This document shows positions 22,105-35,323 of a stretch of DNA of 64,000 nucleotides, one piece after another. The notes beneath the pieces were generated by a model. The model ran no database searches, was not told the DNA's origin, and was given only the letters and a program-made list of their open reading frames with translations. How positions within the stretch are numbered: position 1 is the first letter of the stretch; the number at the start of each line of letters is the position of its first letter. Source of the stretch: Burkholderiales bacterium C2 (GTDB lineage Bacteria; Pseudomonadota; Gammaproteobacteria; Burkholderiales; Burkholderiaceae_C); assembly GCA_005503085.1 (NCBI GenBank), contig SCOI01000014.1, positions 62,001-126,000 of the forward strand, written 5' to 3'. Position numbers and translations under genes: made by a program.

Positions 22105-22179
22105 CTCTCCGTAGTTCAATGGATAGAACGGCCGCCTCCTAAGCGGCAAATGTGGGTTCGATTCCCGCCGGAGAGACCA
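22105..22179 (+). tRNA. tRNA-Arg (anticodon CCT)
   Basis: A 75-base cloverleaf with encoded CCA. Acceptor arms CTCTCCG/CGGAGAG pair fully, D stem GTTC/GAAC, anticodon stem GCCGC/GCGGC with loop CTCCTAA (anticodon CCT), and T stem GTGGG/CCCGC. It decodes the AGG codon. A leftward secreted-protein operon begins to converge on it 35 bases downstream. Confidence 0.95.
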
Positions 22180-22214: not shown

Positions 22215-22847
22215 TCAGCTCGCGACCGAGACAGCTGTCTGGCGCCGGCGCCACAGTGCCGGCACAAAAGCACCCGCCAGCGCCAGTGCCACCAGTGCAT
22301 ACGACTGCGGCTCAGCCACCGTGGCGCAACTGCCCTGCCCCACTGCGATACAGGCTCGGCCGTAGCTGACATCGGTCAGGCTCTCCCCGCGGCGCCCCAC
22401 CAGATTGATCTCGAAGTCCGGGCTGTTACCAAAGCTCAGGAACGAGAAACCGTCGTTCAGACCGTTGAAACTCAGCGTCATCAAGGTGAAGGCATCGTCC
22501 GTCTGGTCGCCGGCCAGAACATCGTCGTCGCCCTCCAGCGAGAAGGCCTGCACGCCGAAGTCCATCGGCGGCACCGACGCGTCAACGCTGTCCCACAGCC
22601 CCCCGAGTCCGGCGCCCAGCGTATAGCCGGTGAAGCCGATGATCGCCGGGTTGTATTTGATATTGAGATCAAACGCCGAGACGATCTGGCTGCCCAGGCC
22701 ACTGATGTTGACGTCCACGAGATATGGTCCGCCAACGGCCACGCTCATGCTCGACGGCGAGAAGCTGACAACGGGTGCTGCATGCGCCACCGAGCCCGAG
22801 AACAAGGCGGCAGCGACAAGCCCCAGACTGAGTAATTTGTTTTTCAT
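22215..22847 (-). CDS. Cohesin-like PEP-CTERM protein
   Basis: A 210-residue exported protein. Signal peptide: residues 1-23 (MKNKLLSLGLVAAALFSGSV, then AHA). Residues about 25-170 resemble a type I cohesin fold: 'MSVAVGGPYLVDVNISGLG', 'VSAFDLNIKYNPAIIGFTGY', then a strand-rich region with 'FTLMTLSFNGLNDG'. The C-terminus is a sorting signal (AEPQSYALVALALAGAFVPA followed by LWRRRQ). It is of PEP-CTERM type, but with Ala in place of the first Pro, and is processed by exosortase/archaeosortase-like EpsH systems. It lies 35 bases downstream of a gene for a dockerin-bearing protein, so the pair may dock. GAGGTC precedes the start at 22847. Confidence 0.85.
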   Translation of the reverse strand: MKNKLLSLGLVAAALFSGSVAHAAPVVSFSPSSMSVAVGGPYLVDVNISGLGSQIVSAFDLNIKYNPAIIGFTGYTLGAGLGGLWDSVDASVPPMDFGVQAFSLEGDDDVLAGDQTDDAFTLMTLSFNGLNDGFSFLSFGNSPDFEINLVGRRGESLTDVSYGRACIAVGQGSCATVAEPQSYALVALALAGAFVPALWRRRQTAVSVAS

Positions 22848-22882
22848 GAATGACCTCACGGTTTGGAACGAAACACTGCAGA

Positions 22883-24676
22883 TCAGGGCGCGCATTGCGG
22901 CTTGCTGCACTTCATCACGCACAGACGCACATCATTGATCGTGATCTTGTTGTCGCCATTGGCGTCTCGCGCATCGCCCGCCACCGGGGTCTGCCCGATG
23001 CTGCTGCGGATCGCGTTGACATCGGCGATGTCGATGGCGCCGTTCTGATCGATGTCGCAGCTCAAGTTGTTGCTGTTGACGGTCAGGTCATACAGCACCG
23101 GAGAGTCGCCAGCGGTGTTGGCATTGAGCCGTGCCTGGATCTGGATGTAGCGCCCCATGGCGGCGAACTGGACGTTCTTCCCGATGGGCTGATACGCCAG
23201 CAAAGACAAGCCCGCCACGGAGTCCGCGCTGCGGATCTGGACGCCGATGGATGCACCGGTCGGCACCAGATCGGCCCAGTTGACCTTGCCCCATGCCGTC
23301 CCAGCCGCACCGCCATCGAACACCGCCGTCCAGGTGCCAGTGTTGTTAGTGATGTTGCGCGCCGCAAAACCAGCGGCATCGCTGTAGGTGTAGGGCTCGT
23401 TGCCGATCGGGAAGACACCCAAGGGCGTGCCGTCGTTGCCTCGGTACTTGGAGATATTGGCCGTGGTGCGGTGGATCAGCCAGACATCGTTGTTCGCGTC
23501 GACCGCCACACCGCGAACCTCACCGGTCCCGCCCTGCGCCGGCCGCTGCCATAGCACGGTGCCATCGGCTGCGAACTTGGTCACGCCGCCCGAGGAGTAG
23601 TTGCCGGCGATGATGTTGCCGCTGCCATCCACAGCCACACCCAAGGCCCCGTGACTGGCAGCGGCCGGTGCATCGAAGCTGTTGGTAGTGGGGTTGAAGC
23701 GGGCAAACGGTCGACCGCTGGCGCCACTGTAGGTTGCCAGATAGACGCGGTCATTGCCCAGCGCAATGCCGTAGTTCGACATGCCGAAGGAGAAGGTCGC
23801 CACGCTGGAAGGATTGCTCGTATCGAGCTTGCCCAGCCGGGACCCCAGATCCGCGCTCCACAGGATGCCGTTGCGATCAACCAGGCAGCCATAAGGCGTC
23901 AGGCCGATGCTGTGCGGGCCGCTGACGGTGCTGCCATCGGACGATGCCACCTTGTAGTAGGTGCCGTCATTGAACAGCCCCACCCACAGATTGCCGTCCG
24001 GCGCAATGCAAAGCGAGCGCCCGAGCGCGCCGTTGCGGAAGGGGGCAGCAATGCCATCGGGTACGCGGCGTGCCCAGGCAATGCGCTCGTCCTGCAATTC
24101 AGCAGCATCGATATAGCCGTTGCCGTTGGTATCGGCCATCGGCAGGATTTCGGCGCCGGCAATAATGCCGTTGTTGTTCAGATCATTGGAGGTGTCGATG
24201 GAGCCATTGCCATTGCGATCAACCCCGCCCTCGGCCAGAATCTTGATCAGCACGGCCGACTTGCCGTCGAAGTGCCGATTCAGCACATAGGCATTGCCCT
24301 GGATGTCGACCGCCGTGCGCGACGGAGCAGGTCCGGCGTAGGCATTGCCCAGATGCGAGACGAAGCCGGCCTGGCCCGACGGACCGAAACCTGTGCGGTA
24401 GCGCGCGATTTCCTTGTTGTTGTTGGTGTCGATCTTGGACACCGTGTCCTCGCCGGCATTGGCAATCCACAGCACCGGGAAGGTGGTGCCGATGCGGTTG
24501 AGCTGAAGCTGATTGTTGTTGGGCGCATCGTGGTTGACGCCGTCCAGCGCACCGAGATCAAAGTCGGTGTCGGTGGTGTAAGTCTTGGTCGCCGCCGACA
24601 GCGCCAGAGGAAGCAGCAGCATGGCGGCCGCAAGCAGGCCTTGCATGGCCTGCGGGAAACGGACTTGTTGTGTCAT
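22883..24676 (-). CDS. Secreted beta-propeller (NHL-like) protein with C-terminal dockerin domain
   Basis: A 597-residue exported protein. Signal peptide about residues 1-28 (QAMQGLLAAAMLLLPLALSA). Residues about 50-400 contain propeller-like repeats of the NHL/SMP-30 sort ('GNLWVGLFNDGTYYKVAS', 'GILWSADLGSRLGKLDTSN', 'NDVWLIHRTTANISKYRG'). Two embedded Ca2+-loop motifs lie near 150-185 (DRNGNGSID; DTNGNGYIDAAEL). A jelly-roll-like segment follows, then a type I dockerin at about 540-597 with both Ca2+ loops (DIDQNGAIDIADV and DANGDNKITINDV) and a Cys-bearing tail. The start at 24676 has AGGAG upstream. The dockerin probably binds the cohesin-like PEP-CTERM protein encoded just downstream. 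Confidence 0.85.
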   Translation of the reverse strand: MTQQVRFPQAMQGLLAAAMLLLPLALSAATKTYTTDTDFDLGALDGVNHDAPNNNQLQLNRIGTTFPVLWIANAGEDTVSKIDTNNNKEIARYRTGFGPSGQAGFVSHLGNAYAGPAPSRTAVDIQGNAYVLNRHFDGKSAVLIKILAEGGVDRNGNGSIDTSNDLNNNGIIAGAEILPMADTNGNGYIDAAELQDERIAWARRVPDGIAAPFRNGALGRSLCIAPDGNLWVGLFNDGTYYKVASSDGSTVSGPHSIGLTPYGCLVDRNGILWSADLGSRLGKLDTSNPSSVATFSFGMSNYGIALGNDRVYLATYSGASGRPFARFNPTTNSFDAPAAASHGALGVAVDGSGNIIAGNYSSGGVTKFAADGTVLWQRPAQGGTGEVRGVAVDANNDVWLIHRTTANISKYRGNDGTPLGVFPIGNEPYTYSDAAGFAARNITNNTGTWTAVFDGGAAGTAWGKVNWADLVPTGASIGVQIRSADSVAGLSLLAYQPIGKNVQFAAMGRYIQIQARLNANTAGDSPVLYDLTVNSNNLSCDIDQNGAIDIADVNAIRSSIGQTPVAGDARDANGDNKITINDVRLCVMKCSKPQCAP

Positions 24677-24735: not shown

Positions 24736-25770
24736 TCAACGAGCCTGGGCGACGCGGGACGCAGCAGCGGCCGGGCGCACCTGGGGCAGCATGTCCTGCC
24801 CGATGCCGTGCGTCAGACGCTCGACGGCCCCTCCCTGCAGCGAGACGCTGTAGATCGAGGTGCGCACGTCACGCGTGCTGGCAAAGTAGATGCGCTGCCC
24901 GTCGACGGACCATTCCGGTGACATATCGTCAAGCTGGGAATCGCTCAGCGCGCGCGCCTTCGTGCCGTCGACATTCATGACCCATAGGCGGGTTACCCCT
25001 TCGCCACCGGCATTGCTCAGAAACGCCAGATGACGGCCGTCGGGCGAGAAACGCGGCGCCGAGTTGAAGGCCTTGTTGTCGGTCAGTGCACGCCTGTCAC
25101 TGCCATCCAGCGCGATCGAGAAGATCTCGGCGACGCTGTTCTGCCGGGTGGTGAACAGCACACGCAGACCATCGGGCGTGAACTGCGGCTGACTATCGTC
25201 CCGGCCTGGCGAACGCGTCAGGTTCTGTGCAGCACTGCCGTCGGCGTTCATGATCCACAGATCGCGTCGGTTCTCGTTGCGCATGAAGGCGATGCGCTTG
25301 CCGTCCGGCGACCAGACCGGCTCCACATCGTCTTCTGCATACTCGGTCAGGCGCTGCTGGTTCTTGCCGTCCGCATCCATGCGGTAGATGTTCTGGTTGC
25401 CGTCCCGGTGACTGACAAACACCAGATGGCGACCGTCGGGCGACCAGCGCGGACTGTCATTCAGATGATTGCCCTGGGTCAGCTGTCGATGGCTGCCACT
25501 GAGCATGTCGTGAACGAACACATGCGCATAAGCCCCTGCAGCTGCGACATATGCGACGTACCGGCCATCGGGTGACCAGCGCGCATCAAACACCGCCGAC
25601 GGCTGGGCTCCCCGCATCTTCTGCACATCCTGCCCTTGCTGGCGCAGGTGGTAGAGCTCGGCCGCCCCGTTGCGGCTGCTGATCACCAGCAATTCGTCCG
25701 ACACTGTTGCGGCCGAGGCCACACCTGCACTCAACACCGCGAGTAGCGACATGAACCCTTGCAGCTTCAT
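24736..25770 (-). CDS. Periplasmic TolB-like PD40 beta-propeller protein
   Basis: A 344-residue exported protein with a signal peptide (MKLQGFMSLLAVLSAGVASA). Six or seven PD40/WD40-like blades follow, each with a 'WSPDGRxxxF' core: 'ARWSPDGRYVAYVA', 'PRWSPDGRHLVFVSH', 'PVWSPDGKRIAFMRN', 'PQFTPDGLRVLFTT', 'PRFSPDGRHLAFLS' and 'PEWSVDGQRIYFAS'. This is the fold of the TolB C-terminal propeller, but the TolB N-terminal domain is missing and there is no tol-pal context. It is therefore a TolB-like protein rather than TolB. It lies between a small exported protein (9-base gap) and the dockerin protein (59-base gap) in one operon, suggesting a shared extracellular or periplasmic role. Confidence 0.85.
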   Translation of the reverse strand: MKLQGFMSLLAVLSAGVASAATVSDELLVISSRNGAAELYHLRQQGQDVQKMRGAQPSAVFDARWSPDGRYVAYVAAAGAYAHVFVHDMLSGSHRQLTQGNHLNDSPRWSPDGRHLVFVSHRDGNQNIYRMDADGKNQQRLTEYAEDDVEPVWSPDGKRIAFMRNENRRDLWIMNADGSAAQNLTRSPGRDDSQPQFTPDGLRVLFTTRQNSVAEIFSIALDGSDRRALTDNKAFNSAPRFSPDGRHLAFLSNAGGEGVTRLWVMNVDGTKARALSDSQLDDMSPEWSVDGQRIYFASTRDVRTSIYSVSLQGGAVERLTHGIGQDMLPQVRPAAAASRVAQAR

Positions 25771-25779
25771 GGCCGGGCC

Positions 25780-26127
25780 TCACTGAGCAAAGTTGACAGT
25801 GGCCTGAGCCAGCGCGCGGCCACCGGTGTCGGCGACCGTGACCCGATAGCTGCCGGGCAGGGAAGCGACGAGGCGATAACTCAGCTGCCCGTTGCCGTCC
25901 ACAACAGCGCTGTAGCCAGCAGTCTGTCCGCCAGGCGCCGCAACGAAAACCGTCACCGCTGCCCCGGCCGGCAGGCCGTGGCCTTTAAGCACCGCAGGCT
26001 CCGTGGTCTTCAGCACCGAGGGGCCGGAGAGACTGGCAGTTGTTGATGCGGGGGACTGGGCCTGGGCGGAGGCACCCAGGCTCAAACACAGAAGGCCCGA
26101 GACCAGGCCGGGAATCCACTGGGACAT
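25780..26127 (-). CDS. Small exported protein, first gene of the dockerin operon
   Basis: A 115-residue protein with a signal peptide (MSQWIPGLVSGLLCLSLGAS, then AQAQ). The mature part is about 90 residues and looks like a single Ig/Big-like or filamin-like beta-sandwich: 'LKGHGLPAGAAVTVFVAAPG', 'YSAVVDGNGQLSYRLVASLP' and 'YRVTVADTGG'. No catalytic motif is visible. The start at 26127 has a good AAGGAG site; an upstream in-frame ATG would put the signal sequence in the interior. The role is unknown. It heads the leftward operon with the propeller, dockerin and cohesin-like genes. Confidence 0.75.
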   Translation of the reverse strand: MSQWIPGLVSGLLCLSLGASAQAQSPASTTASLSGPSVLKTTEPAVLKGHGLPAGAAVTVFVAAPGGQTAGYSAVVDGNGQLSYRLVASLPGSYRVTVADTGGRALAQATVNFAQ

Positions 26128-26360
26128 GTTTGGCTCCTTCACTTTTCTGGGCGATATTCGCCCGCCGCGTAGAGCCAATACTTTCACTAGAAGCGTCCGG
26201 CGGCAATCGCCCAAACGGCAAAACCCGACATCGGATCCCCCGCGTTCGGGGGGATTTCTGGGCTCATCCCCCTAGTAACAAGGTGTGAATGAAAGGCGTT
26301 ATCAGTTCAACCGGATGCGAGTCGACGCGAGGAAGAAAAGTGCAGGAATGCAACCGGTGC
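26128..26360 (-). promoter_or_regulatory. Upstream region of the dockerin operon with repeated ATCCCCC boxes and dyads
   Basis: This 233-base gene-free stretch holds three copies of an ATCCCCC box: 26235-26241 and 26266-26272 in the same orientation, and 26249-26255 inverted. The first two form a hairpin or an operator dyad. A dyad CCTaGTaACaAGG lies at 26271-26283. A perfect 6-bp hairpin GGGCGA-TAT-TCGCCC lies at 26149-26163, within the likely 5' leader just before the ribosome site. No confident -35/-10 pair can be named. Regulator binding is inferred from the repeat arrangement only. Confidence 0.4.
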
Positions 26361-27971
26361 TCAAGCCCGCCGCATCGCCCGTGACAACATGATCACGGGG
26401 ATCAGCCCGACCAGCACGATGGCCAGCGAGGGCAGCGCAGCCTCGCCCAGGCGTTCATCGCGCGCCAGCTGATAGGCGACAACGGCCAAGGTGTCGCTGT
26501 TGAAGGGCCGCAGCACCAGGGTCGCCGGCAACTCCTTCATCACATCGACAAACACCAGCAGTGCTGCGGCCCAGGCCGAGCGCGCCAGCAAGGGGGCATG
26601 CAACTCGAGAAACATCCGGGTGCGCGAGGCGCCCAGCATGCGAGCGGTCTCGTCCACGGTCGGCGAGATGCGGGCATAGCCGGCCTCCAGCGACTGCAGG
26701 GCCACGCCGGAGAAGCGCACCAGATAGGCATACATCAGGCCGGCAATGGTGCCGGTCATCAGACTGGTCAAGCCCAGCTGCGGCCAGCGCTCCTGCAGCC
26801 AGCCCAGCGGCAGCAGGATGCCGATCGCGATCACCGCGCCAGGCACGGCATAGCCCAGCGACACGATACGGGTCGAGACGCCCAGCAGGGCAGAGCCCGA
26901 GCCGCGCACCCGTCCCAGATAGGCCAGAACCAGGGCCAGCAGCACCGCCAGCAGGGCGGCCAGACCGGACAGCTTCAGGCTGCTCAGGCTCCACTGCACA
27001 AAGCGCGCCAGTGGCAGCCCCAATTCAGCATGCAGGGCCTCCTGCCACAGCAGTTGCAAAAGTACGAGCACCGGCACGACAAAGCCCAGCAGGATGGGCA
27101 GCGTGCACAGCAGCACGGCTGCCAGCGCCGCGCCGCCATGCAACGGCAAAGGACGCGCCTCGGCCGCATGCAGCGCGCCGCTGCGGCTGCTGGCAAAACG
27201 CAGCTTGGCCTGAGCGCGCCGCTCCAGCCACAGCAGGGCGCCGACCGCCAGCAGCAGCACCGAGGCCAGCTGCGCCGCAGCGGTCTTGTCATTCATCACC
27301 AGCCAGGCCTTGTAGACACCGGTGGTCAAGGTGGTCAGTCCGAAATAAGCGCCGACCCCATAGTCAGCCAGCGTCTCCATCAGCGCCAGCGCGATGCCGG
27401 CGGCAAGCGCGGGTCGGGCCAACGGCAGCGCGACCTCGCGCACCCGGCGCGTGGTGCCGGCGCCCAGCATGCGCGCCGCTTCCATCAAGGCCACGCCCCG
27501 CTCGCTCAGCGCGGTGCGGGTCAGCAGGTAGACATAGGGATAGAGACACAGCACGAACAGGCCCACGGCACCGGGCAGGCTGCGCACATCGGGCCAGAGC
27601 GCGCCCTGAGCCCCGGTCATCGCGCGCAGCCAGGTCTGCAAAGCGCCGCTGTACTGCAAGGCATCGGTGTAGGCGTAGGCAGCCACATAGGCCGGCATCG
27701 CCATCGGCAGCAGCAGACCCCATTCGAAGAAGCGCCGGCCCGGAAAGTCAAACAGGCTGACCGCCGCCGCCGTGGCACCGCCGATCAGGGCCACGCCGAT
27801 GGCCACACAGACCGACAGCAGCAAGGAGGCCCAGGCGTACTCGGGCAGCACGGTCTGCAACTGGTGCTGCAGGATGGCCAGGGCCTGCGCATCCAGCGCC
27901 AGCCAGGAACCCAGGATGCCCAGCACGGGCACGGCCAACAAAAGGCAGACAACAGTGATCAGGCGCAGCAT
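26361..27971 (-). CDS. Iron(III)-type ABC transporter permease (two fused permease units)
   Basis: A 536-residue membrane protein with about 12 predicted helices arranged as two BPD_transp_1 modules, as in FbpB/AfuB-type ferric iron permeases. Each half has an EAA-like loop: 'EAARMLGAGTTRRVREVALP' near residues 165-184, and 'ETARMLGASRTRMFLELHAP' near 437-456. These contact the ATPase. It is transcribed divergently from the matching ATP-binding gene across about 106 bases, which contain a Fur-like site. A periplasmic binding protein gene is missing from this locus. Iron is the likely substrate, but thiamine or other FbpB-like substrates are possible. Confidence 0.9.
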   Translation of the reverse strand: MLRLITVVCLLLAVPVLGILGSWLALDAQALAILQHQLQTVLPEYAWASLLLSVCVAIGVALIGGATAAAVSLFDFPGRRFFEWGLLLPMAMPAYVAAYAYTDALQYSGALQTWLRAMTGAQGALWPDVRSLPGAVGLFVLCLYPYVYLLTRTALSERGVALMEAARMLGAGTTRRVREVALPLARPALAAGIALALMETLADYGVGAYFGLTTLTTGVYKAWLVMNDKTAAAQLASVLLLAVGALLWLERRAQAKLRFASSRSGALHAAEARPLPLHGGAALAAVLLCTLPILLGFVVPVLVLLQLLWQEALHAELGLPLARFVQWSLSSLKLSGLAALLAVLLALVLAYLGRVRGSGSALLGVSTRIVSLGYAVPGAVIAIGILLPLGWLQERWPQLGLTSLMTGTIAGLMYAYLVRFSGVALQSLEAGYARISPTVDETARMLGASRTRMFLELHAPLLARSAWAAALLVFVDVMKELPATLVLRPFNSDTLAVVAYQLARDERLGEAALPSLAIVLVGLIPVIMLSRAMRRA

Positions 27972-32678: not shown

Positions 32679-33599
32679 ATGACCACACTCAGAGCCGTCT
32701 CCCTGATTGGCGCCCCCACCGATATCGGCGCCGGCGCGCGCGGCGCCAGCATGGGGCCCGAGGCCTTGCGCGTGGCCGGCCTGGGCGCGACCTTGGAGAG
32801 TCATGGCGTCGAGGTGCTGGACCGCGGCAATCTGCTGGGCCCGGCCAATCCCTGGCTGCCGCCGGTGGACGGCTACCGCCACCTGAACGAGGTCGTCGCC
32901 TGGAACCGCTCGGTCCACGAGGCCGTACATGCCGAGCTGAAGCTGGGCCGCATGCCCATCCTGCTGGGCGGTGATCATTGCCTGGGCCTGGGCTCGATCA
33001 GCGCGGTGGCTCGCCATTGCCGCGAGACCGGCAAGAAGCTGCGCGTGCTGTGGCTCGATGCCCATGCCGATTTCAACACCAGTGCGCTGACGCCCAGCGG
33101 CAATATCCACGGCATGCCGGTGGCCTGCCTGTGCGGCTTCGGCCCGCAGGCCCTGATCGAGATCGGTGGCCAGGTCCCGGCCATCAACCCGAAGTGGGTG
33201 CGCCAGATCGGTATCCGCAGCGTCGATGCCGGCGAGAAGCGCTTTGTCCACGAGCAGGAGCTCGAGGTCTTCGACATGCGCTATATCGACGAGATGGGCA
33301 TGCGCCACACGATGGAGCTGGCCCTGGCCACGCTGGATGCCAACACCCATCTGCACGTCAGCTTCGATGTGGATTTCCTGGACCCCGAGATCGCACCGGG
33401 CGTCGGCACCACGGTGCCCGGCGGCCCGACCTATCGGGAAGCCCAGCTGTGCATGGAGATGATTGCCGACACAGGCCGAATGGGCTCGCTCGATGTGATG
33501 GAGTTGAACCCGGCCCTGGATGTGCGCAACAAGACCGCCGAGTTGGCGGTGGACCTGATCGAGTCCCTGTTTGGCAAGAGCACTTTGATGAGAAAGTGA
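32679..33599 (+). CDS. rocF: Arginase
   Basis: A 306-residue ureohydrolase converting arginine to ornithine and urea. The binuclear Mn-binding motifs are GGDHC at 97-101, DAHADFN at 127-133 (Asp127, His129, Asp131), and SFDVDFLDP at 228-236 (Asp230, Asp232). The conserved 'GNIHGMPVA' follows the second motif, and 'ELNPALD' is the C-terminal metal/loop motif. Length fits arginase rather than agmatinase. The final eight codons (GKSTLMRK) and stop are the first of four tandem copies of the same coding end, described separately. It follows the LOG gene closely. Confidence 0.93.
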   Translation: MTTLRAVSLIGAPTDIGAGARGASMGPEALRVAGLGATLESHGVEVLDRGNLLGPANPWLPPVDGYRHLNEVVAWNRSVHEAVHAELKLGRMPILLGGDHCLGLGSISAVARHCRETGKKLRVLWLDAHADFNTSALTPSGNIHGMPVACLCGFGPQALIEIGGQVPAINPKWVRQIGIRSVDAGEKRFVHEQELEVFDMRYIDEMGMRHTMELALATLDANTHLHVSFDVDFLDPEIAPGVGTTVPGGPTYREAQLCMEMIADTGRMGSLDVMELNPALDVRNKTAELAVDLIESLFGKSTLMRK

Positions 33600-33760
33600 G
33601 CTTGCCCTGCCCCTGCGGGACAGACGGCAAGAGCACTTTGATGAGAAAGTGAGCTTGCCCTGCCCCTGCGGGACAGACGGCAAGAGCACCTTGATGAGAA
33701 AGTGAGCTTGTCCTGCCCCTGTGGGGCAGGCGGCAAATCGACCTTGATGCGCAAGTAAGC
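33573..33760 (+). repeat. 53-bp tandem repeat duplicating the arginase 3' end
   Basis: Three full units begin at 33573, 33626 and 33679, and a partial fourth at 33732. Units 1 and 2 are identical. Each unit opens with the codons for GKSTLMRK and a stop, in the frame relative to the unit, then a hairpin. In unit 3 the hairpin is a perfect 8-bp CCTGCCCC-TGT-GGGGCAGG; in units 1-2 it is imperfect. Unit 4 encodes the same eight residues with different codons (AAA, TCG, ACC, CGC, AAG) and ends in TAA. A second small dyad CACTTT/AAAGTG lies in each unit. The array fills the gap to the convergent marR gene. Confidence 0.92.
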
Positions 33761-34321: not shown

Positions 34322-35323
34322 TCAAGGCACGCGGAGCATATCGCGCTCGTTCACCCTCACCTGCCGAACATCGCCGCCCTCCGGTGCATAGGTGAGCGTC
34401 AACGTTTTGCGTCGACCGGGCGCCGGGTCGCTGCCGGCCAGGCTGTTGTCCACCCGGAGTTCCAGGCGGTTGCGCCGGACCAACTCGCGCAGACGGTCGC
34501 TGACATCCACGGTATTGCTCCCGTAGCCATAGCGGGCACTGATGATGCGCAGCCGGGCGCCGCCGGCCTGGGGCTCATCGCCATCGTCACGGCCGCCGCC
34601 CCAGCCGCCCGACCAGCCGCCGTGGCCCCAGTCGCCGCGTCCCCAGCCGGTGAACTGCGCACCGTCCACCTGGCTGTACTCCTCGTACTCGAAGGTGCGC
34701 TGCTGGCCGTCACGGCCGCGCGCAAAGATGCGCAAGGTCTTGCGGCGGCCCGGATCGGGATCGACACCGAACACATCGTTGACCAGCTTGAAGCGCCGGT
34801 CCTGGCGGGCCAGTTGCTTGAGTTGCTGGGTGACATCGACATGGTGCTTCGCCGTGCCGTAGCGGGCCTGCAGGATCTGGTACTCGCCGTCATCATCGCG
34901 CCCCTGCGGACGCCCGCCGCCGGAAGGACCATCGCCCCAGCCGCCTGACCAGCCGCCGTGGCCCCAGTCACCGCGCCCCCAGCCGGTGAACTGCGAGCCG
35001 TCCACCTGGCTGTACTCCTCGTACTCGAAGGTGCGCTGCTGGCCGTCACGCCCGCGTGCAAAGATGCGCAGGGTCTTGCGGCGGCCCGGATCGGGATCAA
35101 CGCCGAACACATCGTTGACCAGCTTGAAGCGTCGGTCCTGGCGGGCCAGCTGCTTGAGCTGCTGGGTGACGTCGACATGGTGCTGCGCCGTGCCGTACCG
35201 AGCCTGCAGGATCTGGTATTCGCCGTCGTCGTCACGGCCCCGCTGCGCGCTCGCCGTGGCGGCCAGCATCAGCATCAGGACCAGGGCGGTCCAGCCCTGT
35301 CGCAGGATTGTTGCAAGACTCAA
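34322..35323 (-). CDS. Exported protein with three tandem DUF3395-like domains
   Basis: A 333-residue protein with a signal peptide (about residues 10-26, WTALVLMLMLAATASA). It carries three copies of a domain of about 75-80 residues built on I-x-x-A-x-Y-G, D-V-T/S-x-x-L, N-D-x-F-G-x-D-P-x-P-G-R-R-K-x-L. The copies lie at about 35-110, 147-222 and 258-330. Copies 1 and 2, with their Gly/Trp-rich linkers, are almost identical with a 112-residue period; copy 3 is diverged. The motif resembles the DUF3395 domain, of unknown function. The start is TTG at 35323, supported by AAGGGAG upstream at good spacing. The Gly/Trp/Asp linkers suggest a flexible extracytoplasmic protein. Confidence 0.78.
   Translation of the reverse strand: MSLATILRQGWTALVLMLMLAATASAQRGRDDDGEYQILQARYGTAQHHVDVTQQLKQLARQDRRFKLVNDVFGVDPDPGRRKTLRIFARGRDGQQRTFEYEEYSQVDGSQFTGWGRGDWGHGGWSGGWGDGPSGGGRPQGRDDDGEYQILQARYGTAKHHVDVTQQLKQLARQDRRFKLVNDVFGVDPDPGRRKTLRIFARGRDGQQRTFEYEEYSQVDGAQFTGWGRGDWGHGGWSGGWGGGRDDGDEPQAGGARLRIISARYGYGSNTVDVSDRLRELVRRNRLELRVDNSLAGSDPAPGRRKTLTLTYAPEGGDVRQVRVNERDMLRVP
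34568..35239 (-). repeat. Recent 336-bp in-frame tandem duplication inside the DUF3395-like gene
   Basis: Residues 29-140 and 141-252 of the protein correspond to two adjacent 336-bp units. They agree almost base for base through the domain and most of the linker, and only the distal linker of the second differs. The third domain copy (bases below about 34555) has diverged at the protein level. Confidence 0.85.

Follow-up and report, generated by a model that had tools for sequence, protein, structure and literature searches.

Cohesin–dockerin pairs build cellulose-digesting complexes, the cellulosomes. C. perfringens and C. thermocellum, whose pairs are compared below, are Gram-positive hosts, unlike the host of the locus described here. 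Noncellulosomal cohesin–dockerin modules were reportedly the subject of Peer et al. in 2009. The function of cohesins and dockerins outside the cellulosome was called unknown in the available text of PMC5244752. According to the accessible passages of PMC5429695, C. perfringens has a two-protein complex and C. thermocellum docks a single enzyme at its surface. The Planctosome hypothesis likewise proposes a non-cellulolytic surface complex with cohesin and dockerin; its available passages describe a lamin-tail domain anchor, peptidase cargo and Planctomycetes, and contain no PEP-CTERM tail (PMC6461901). Proteins of the PEP-CTERM/exosortase system have a signal peptide and a C-terminal PEP-type tail, as here, and that paper contains no mention of cohesin or dockerin (PMC1569441). 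The system and PepA were linked to exopolysaccharide and flocculation (PMC1569441, PMC9850573, accessible passages). Our literature search found no paper in which PEP-CTERM occurs together with cohesin and/or dockerin, though it covered few subscription papers and an earlier description is possible; dockerin and exosortase occurred together only in a paper on methanotrophic archaea, in its accessible part.

The locus described here holds both folds with no cellulosome found, like the noncellulosomal modules in the available text of PMC5244752. It is set apart from them by a recurrent one-cohesin/one-dockerin gene pair, by the exosortase-type tail that the cohesin carries and by the cysteine tail of the dockerin. 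The pair would work like a noncellulosomal cohesin–dockerin pair. It shares non-cellulosomal pairing with C. perfringens and C. thermocellum, for which a single-binding mode is described, and the two dockerin repeats here, compared by eye, are likewise unequal; the words 'disulfide' and 'clasp' are absent from the paper on those two hosts (PMC5429695). We consider it probable that the pair is a two-component surface-docking module, in which an exosortase-displayed single-cohesin receptor docks a dockerin-tagged protein. The folds, the gene pairing, the co-occurrence, the cysteine pattern and the exosortase enrichment reported below were all obtained by computation.

Gene layout of the locus

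In the window (the whole 64,000-nucleotide stretch of DNA that was analysed), four genes follow one another on the minus strand in the order Ig-like protein, TolB-like propeller, P0002 and P0001. Signal-like N-terminal segments were seen by eye on all four products. The features are:

22215–22847, minus strand: P0001, 210 aa, cohesin protein and proposed surface receptor; signal-like N-terminus by eye, PEP-CTERM-like tail
22317–22778, minus strand: cohesin domain of P0001, residues 24–177, from AlphaFold2 and Foldseek
22218–22316, minus strand: putative exosortase-type sorting tail of P0001, AEP variant followed by a hydrophobic stretch and RRR (PF07589 E 0.067, below cut-off)
22883–24676, minus strand: P0002, 597 aa, propeller-like with a C-terminal dockerin, proposed docked cargo
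22886–23071, minus strand: dockerin of P0002; two loops of Ca2+ type, an N-terminal Cys, an R-x-C motif and a tail with C-x4-C
24736–25770, minus strand: TolB-like (PD40) propeller protein (PF07676 E 9.5e-45)
about 25780–26127, minus strand: small Ig-like protein with a signal-like N-terminus, first of the four genes
22105–22179, plus strand: tRNA-Arg (cct), just downstream, oriented towards the end of the cohesin gene

The sequence-only reading had placed a dockerin gene and a cohesin-like gene 35 bases apart, and both open reading frames were found on the minus strand, with that gap (22848–22882) separating the stop of the dockerin gene from the start of the cohesin gene. The TolB-like propeller and small beta-sandwich protein that it named as neighbours are the PD40 and Ig-like genes, which precede the pair in the same orientation. 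The TolB-like gene probably forms one operon with the pair. The small Ig-like protein had weak, sub-cut-off matches to CarboxypepD_reg, Big_9 and Ca_tandemer, and P0002 had an EF-hand match at about residues 180–195. In a look for a sigma-54 promoter at 26100–26420 of the window, 6 matches were found to a loose GG-N9to11-GC pattern and none to a stricter one. The nearest named relative found was Paucibacter sp. PLA-PC-4, with a 97% identical dockerin and the four genes in two diverged copies, in tandem.

Two tandem repeats were observed elsewhere in the window. A 53-base repeat (33573–33760; about 3.1–3.5 copies, 91–95% match) sits at the end of an open reading frame that appears arginase-like by eye (32679–33599), and a 336-base repeat lies at 34597–35227 (1.9 copies, 93% match).

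The family profile gave three cohesin places in the window's genome, on three contigs. In line with the claim made from the letters, no scaffoldin carrying two or more cohesins turned up, and the system was therefore not classed as a cellulosome. One of the two criteria by which cellulosome makers are surveyed in the available text of PMC11557425 is a protein with at least two cohesins, of which the window's genome yielded none. With PF00963, no cohesin was found in this genome at E ≤ 0.001. Scans of P0002 and of the dockerin protein on contig C33 showed no glycoside hydrolase domain in these two proteins.

P0001 as a cohesin

P0001 is a predicted cohesin by family profile and modelled fold, not by its own PF00963 score. 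Its single-sequence Pfam scan gave Cohesin at E 0.037, below the cut-off, and the window copy scored 14.7 to 15.5 bits against a curated cut-off of 24.1. The caveat that the cohesin call was by pattern only was fair, because the single-sequence Pfam scores for cohesin, dockerin and PEP-CTERM were all below the cut-offs. A phmmer search of P0001 against the Protein Data Bank (PDB) gave 0 matches. At family level, PF00963 was matched at E ≤ 1 by all 17 domains of the P0001 family (best E 8.6e-5), with no other Pfam family listed for them; the best PF00963 match among 40 cohesin proteins had E 4.2e-15. When the cohesin-family profile was run against PDB sequences, the best match (E 3.6e-6) was a scaffoldin cohesin, and the 26 entries at E ≤ 10 were mostly cohesins, from scaffoldins and other proteins, plus a small number of unrelated surface proteins. 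The AlphaFold2 model of the domain, built with 13 sequences, had a pLDDT of 90.2 and a pTM of 0.86. Foldseek returned 76 matches to it at E ≤ 0.001, the best 50 of which were all cohesins (top E 1.1e-8). Profile search and structure both give cohesin, clearly above chance, which bears out the cohesin-like fold first proposed.

A cysteine-tailed dockerin in P0002

The loops DIDQNGAIDIAD and DANGDNKITIND lie within the last 62 residues of P0002. The Dockerin_1 match (PF00404) was below the cut-off (E 0.015, 15.9 bits against 22.9), which the C33 paralogue passed with 34.5 bits. The model of these 62 residues had a pLDDT of 87.4 and a pTM of 0.72. In Foldseek it matched nothing at E ≤ 0.001 (best E 7.3e-3); the first 15 rows were all dockerins with probabilities of at least 0.93, and EF-hand proteins followed lower down, at 0.21 or less. 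The dockerin profile run against PDB sequences matched a mixture of dockerins and EF-hand proteins, and none of the NCBIfam dockerin models matched the proteins scanned. Loops and model together show a two-repeat architecture of Ca2+ loop and helix with the dockerin fold, so the type I dockerin with two Ca2+ loops described earlier holds, at modest scores. By eye, the two repeats differ from each other.

A C-x4-C tail was present in 38/48 dockerin domains of the collected loci, usually at the very C-terminus. A cohesin lay within 4 kb of 32 of the 38 and a PEP-CTERM protein of another family, A7, near three more; the three with neither (L061, L066, L072) were all at contig ends. The 32/38 is not an unbiased rate, because the 48-domain table includes loci fetched via the cohesin. 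The table excludes the window locus and the C6 pair, drops L043, L046 and L062 as duplicates of L048, L051 and L061, and drops dockerin matches with E over 1e-4, which hides the dockerin beside the G707 cohesin (E 1.7e-4).

Two further cysteines, one just before loop 1 and one in the R-x-C motif, occur only together: of 39 C-x4-C domains, 31 have both, 8 have neither and none has just one, a count that includes the window and is inflated by relatedness. Judging from this pattern, one disulfide probably closes the dockerin ends (N-terminal Cys to R-x-C) and a second lies in the C-x4-C tail. The dockerin variants of L068, L088 and L089 have no C-x4-C; in these, loop 1 and the tail each contain one Cys.

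Putative sorting tail and exosortases

The tail of P0001 in the window has AEP instead of Pro-Glu-Pro, and its PF07589 match (E 0.067) is accepted by no curated cut-off. The hydrophobic helix and the basic end (RRR) are retained by eye. SEP occurs in the tails of the sister species' cohesin and of the C33 copy, the tail of the C6 cohesin is canonical, with PEP (E 3.1e-7), and many cohesin relatives have PEP at the corresponding position. A genome-wide PEP-CTERM search listed 57 places at E ≤ 10, the window and C33 copies not among them. Across 40 full cohesin proteins, PF07589 matched 33 at E ≤ 1 and TIGR02595 matched 26. The cohesin alignment (A8) includes cohesins without a nearby dockerin; it omits duplicates (L043/L046), contig ends (L070/L071), the 1414-aa protein of L093, an antisense open reading frame in L045 and matches with E over 0.01. 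The P0001 tail is, by its residues, a putative degenerate exosortase (PEP-CTERM) signal. Of the PEP-CTERM-type tail claimed for it, the helix, the basic end and the PEP of relatives stood, and its own AEP failed the cut-offs.

An exosortase in the genome, on which the earlier proposal of anchoring depended, was found twice: two EpsH-family proteins matched strongly (E 2.4e-72 and 3.5e-72). Exosortases (E ≤ 0.001) were present in 22/24 pair-bearing versus 11/37 pair-less genomes (Fisher p 1.4e-6), in groups unmatched for size or phylogeny. The 24 include three weak pairs (G091, G707, G777), and the 37 are class genomes outside the cohesin and dockerin matches, taken by handle number. The two pair-bearing genomes in which an exosortase was not found were G628 (99% complete) and G716 (85%).

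Conservation of the gene pair

The same cohesin–dockerin gene pairing recurs in many genera and is conserved. P0001 alone, searched against 60 genomes, matched 8 places in 5 genomes, its own included; all 7 others adjoin a dockerin gene or, in the case of C33, stand one gene away. A dockerin profile (A1), seeded with dockerins from the loci of that search, found 16 loci in an 84,980-species collection. A cohesin was adjacent in 11 (10 on the same strand; in L060 it lies 842 bases away on the other strand) and another PEP-CTERM protein in 2 (L055, L057). The remaining loci were the near-identical contig starts L061/L062 and L063, which is without Cys tail and cohesin.

In 369 class-level genomes, the cohesin occurred in 15, the dockerin in 19 and both in 13 (expected 0.77, p 9e-18). 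In 399 order-level genomes, the numbers were 10, 9 and 7 (expected 0.23, p 1.4e-11); both p-values treat genomes as independent, though they are related. The 13 shared class genomes span 9 families, and G000 and G050 among them were also sources for the profiles. The dockerin profiles were seeded from dockerins next to cohesins, and later cohesin profiles from cohesins next to dockerins. At 14/16 cohesin places of the class genomes, a dockerin domain lay on the same contig within 3.4 kb. Inspection added weaker adjacent pairs in G091, G777 and G707. Among dockerin-matching class genomes, no cohesin was found in G569 and G739 (no Cys tail) or at the one of four G508 loci that was inspected; G520 was outside the inspection. 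Conversely, cohesins had no dockerin in the stretch seen in G288/L064, G258/L067, G557/L092 and G608/L093.

With the family profiles, the window's genome has three dockerin and three cohesin places, which coincide on contigs C5 (the window), C33 and C6. On C33 the order is cohesin, a protein that is hydrolase-like by eye, and dockerin protein. On C6 the scores are weak (E 0.0049 and 3.4e-4), yet the two genes are immediate neighbours. Pairwise BLAST between the window and C6 cohesins gave only a short match (E 0.007), out of register, and the C6 pair therefore depends on the family profiles. What goes beyond the sequence-only reading is the Cys-tailed dockerin subtype, the presence of two further pairs in the genome and how widely the module is spread.

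Related operons and proposed cargo

In L044, L045, L046/L051, L048 (twice), L049, L050, L052, L053, L054, L055 and L075, the dockerin gene comes after an Ig-like and a TolB-like gene; L069 has only the TolB-like gene of the two. Candidatus Accumulibacter contiguus (L055) encodes another PEP-CTERM protein at the fourth position, the operon place of the cohesin. It belongs to A7, a family found after Cys-tailed dockerin genes (L055:10236-10967, L057:10239-10937, L065:5892-6632). Neighbourhood alone does not single out the cohesin, because A7 follows the dockerin in these three loci. The dockerins that precede A7 proteins have one look, VK-x-CIP-x-CTR. No profile similarity between A7 and the cohesins was detected, and the Pfam matches of A7 were only to sorting-tail models. 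A7 as a divergent cohesin was not supported (hhalign probability 0.1, with only 3 sequences). The two may share a common fold, and our guess is that A7 is a second receptor family.

Putative cargo other than propellers comprised a subtilase (L060), a GDSL lipase (L074), a metallophosphoesterase (L078), cadherin/PKD/Ig repeats (L047) and a choice-of-anchor X domain (L042). The dockerin proteins of L079 (E 2.4e-160) and L090 (E 1.6e-200) are ExeM/NucH nucleases; they match the NCBIfam model exonuc_ExeM-GG up to position 726 of 884 and then end in a dockerin. From its name, this model presumably describes the ExeM form with a GlyGly-CTERM tail. By domain order, these nucleases are the best hint of a dockerin in place of an anchor. 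The choice-of-anchor X domain of L042 also points to an exchange of anchors. The cohesin at L079 is a weak match (E 1e-3).

Proposed docking module and alternatives

We infer export, binding, Ca2+ dependence, disulfides, anchoring and the cargo role. P0001 and P0002 would be exported via their signal peptides, and an exosortase would handle P0001 through its PEP-CTERM-type tail, leaving it retained on the outer surface or within the exopolysaccharide matrix. P0002, without a sorting tail of its own, would be caught through its dockerin, which, loaded with Ca2+ and clasped by disulfides, would bind the single cohesin. This dockerin would be an exchangeable anchor tag, in place of which some related secreted proteins would carry a covalent sorting tail. 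The propeller-like cargo, the TolB-like propeller and the small Ig-like protein probably act together. The surface-assembly interpretation first proposed for the locus is supported, with binding as a prediction.

The two proteins might instead be neighbours rather than partners: the dockerin would be a fold element stabilised by Ca2+, the cohesin protein would belong to the matrix independently, and the genes would stay linked through a shared role in one surface structure. The three loci with a non-cohesin PEP-CTERM protein after the dockerin gene would fit this, as would the EF-hand proteins in the PDB that also match the dockerin profile. However, the cohesin fold recurs beside unrelated dockerin proteins, some with the dockerin near the N-terminus, and cohesin–dockerin is an established binding pair (PMC5429695, accessible passages), and we regard mere neighbourhood as unlikely. 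An improbable variant, which overlaps with the docking module as to binding, would have the pair dock off the surface: the cohesin tail would no longer be processed by exosortase in this species, and the complex would be shed or periplasmic. The AEP of the window copy, the SEP of the sister species and C33, a PF07589 score below cut-off and the absence of the window tail from the 57 listed PEP-CTERM places speak for it. Against it, the hydrophobic segment and the RRR cluster of the tail persist, the C6 tail is canonical with PEP, and two exosortases are encoded in the genome.

It is very improbable that the C-x4-C tail is itself a sorting or lipidation tag like MYXO-CTERM or GlyGly-CTERM, with anchoring not via the cohesin. 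Its frequency (38/48 domains) and usual place at the very C-terminus would suit such a tag. Against it, internal or near-start dockerins keep the tail in L056, L058, L066, L072, L081 (the second), L082 and L086, and the C-terminal cases have few residues after it and neither a hydrophobic helix nor a basic end. The tail as a C-terminal sorting tag was rejected on finding the same tail internally in long open reading frames.

On the docking reading, the recurrent gene pair is likely a means of attaching secreted proteins to the cell surface. Its minimal adjacent form, with a proposed cell-surface address, makes binding and anchoring testable with two small domains. It suggests a role as receptors for some exosortase substrates and offers new, possibly disulfide-stabilised, cohesin–dockerin pairs for protein assembly. 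Whether this extends to a general Gram-negative pathway, with exosortase-displayed private receptors, a dockerin tag replacing covalent tails and the cohesin swapped for A7 in some lineages, we judge to be evenly balanced; if so, the clasped dockerin would be a transferable anchor tag on proteases, nucleases, lipases and propeller proteins.

Unusual arrangements

In G672 (L081:2328-12493), one cohesin gene stands between two dockerin genes, one with a C-terminal dockerin and one with a dockerin near the N-terminus. In G067, cohesin open reading frames run off two contigs (L070:1-935, L071:4941-5875), and the same end residues begin an open reading frame on a third (L072:46-5237) that holds a Cys-tailed dockerin; the contigs are unjoined, and cohesin and dockerin may be one polypeptide in this genome.
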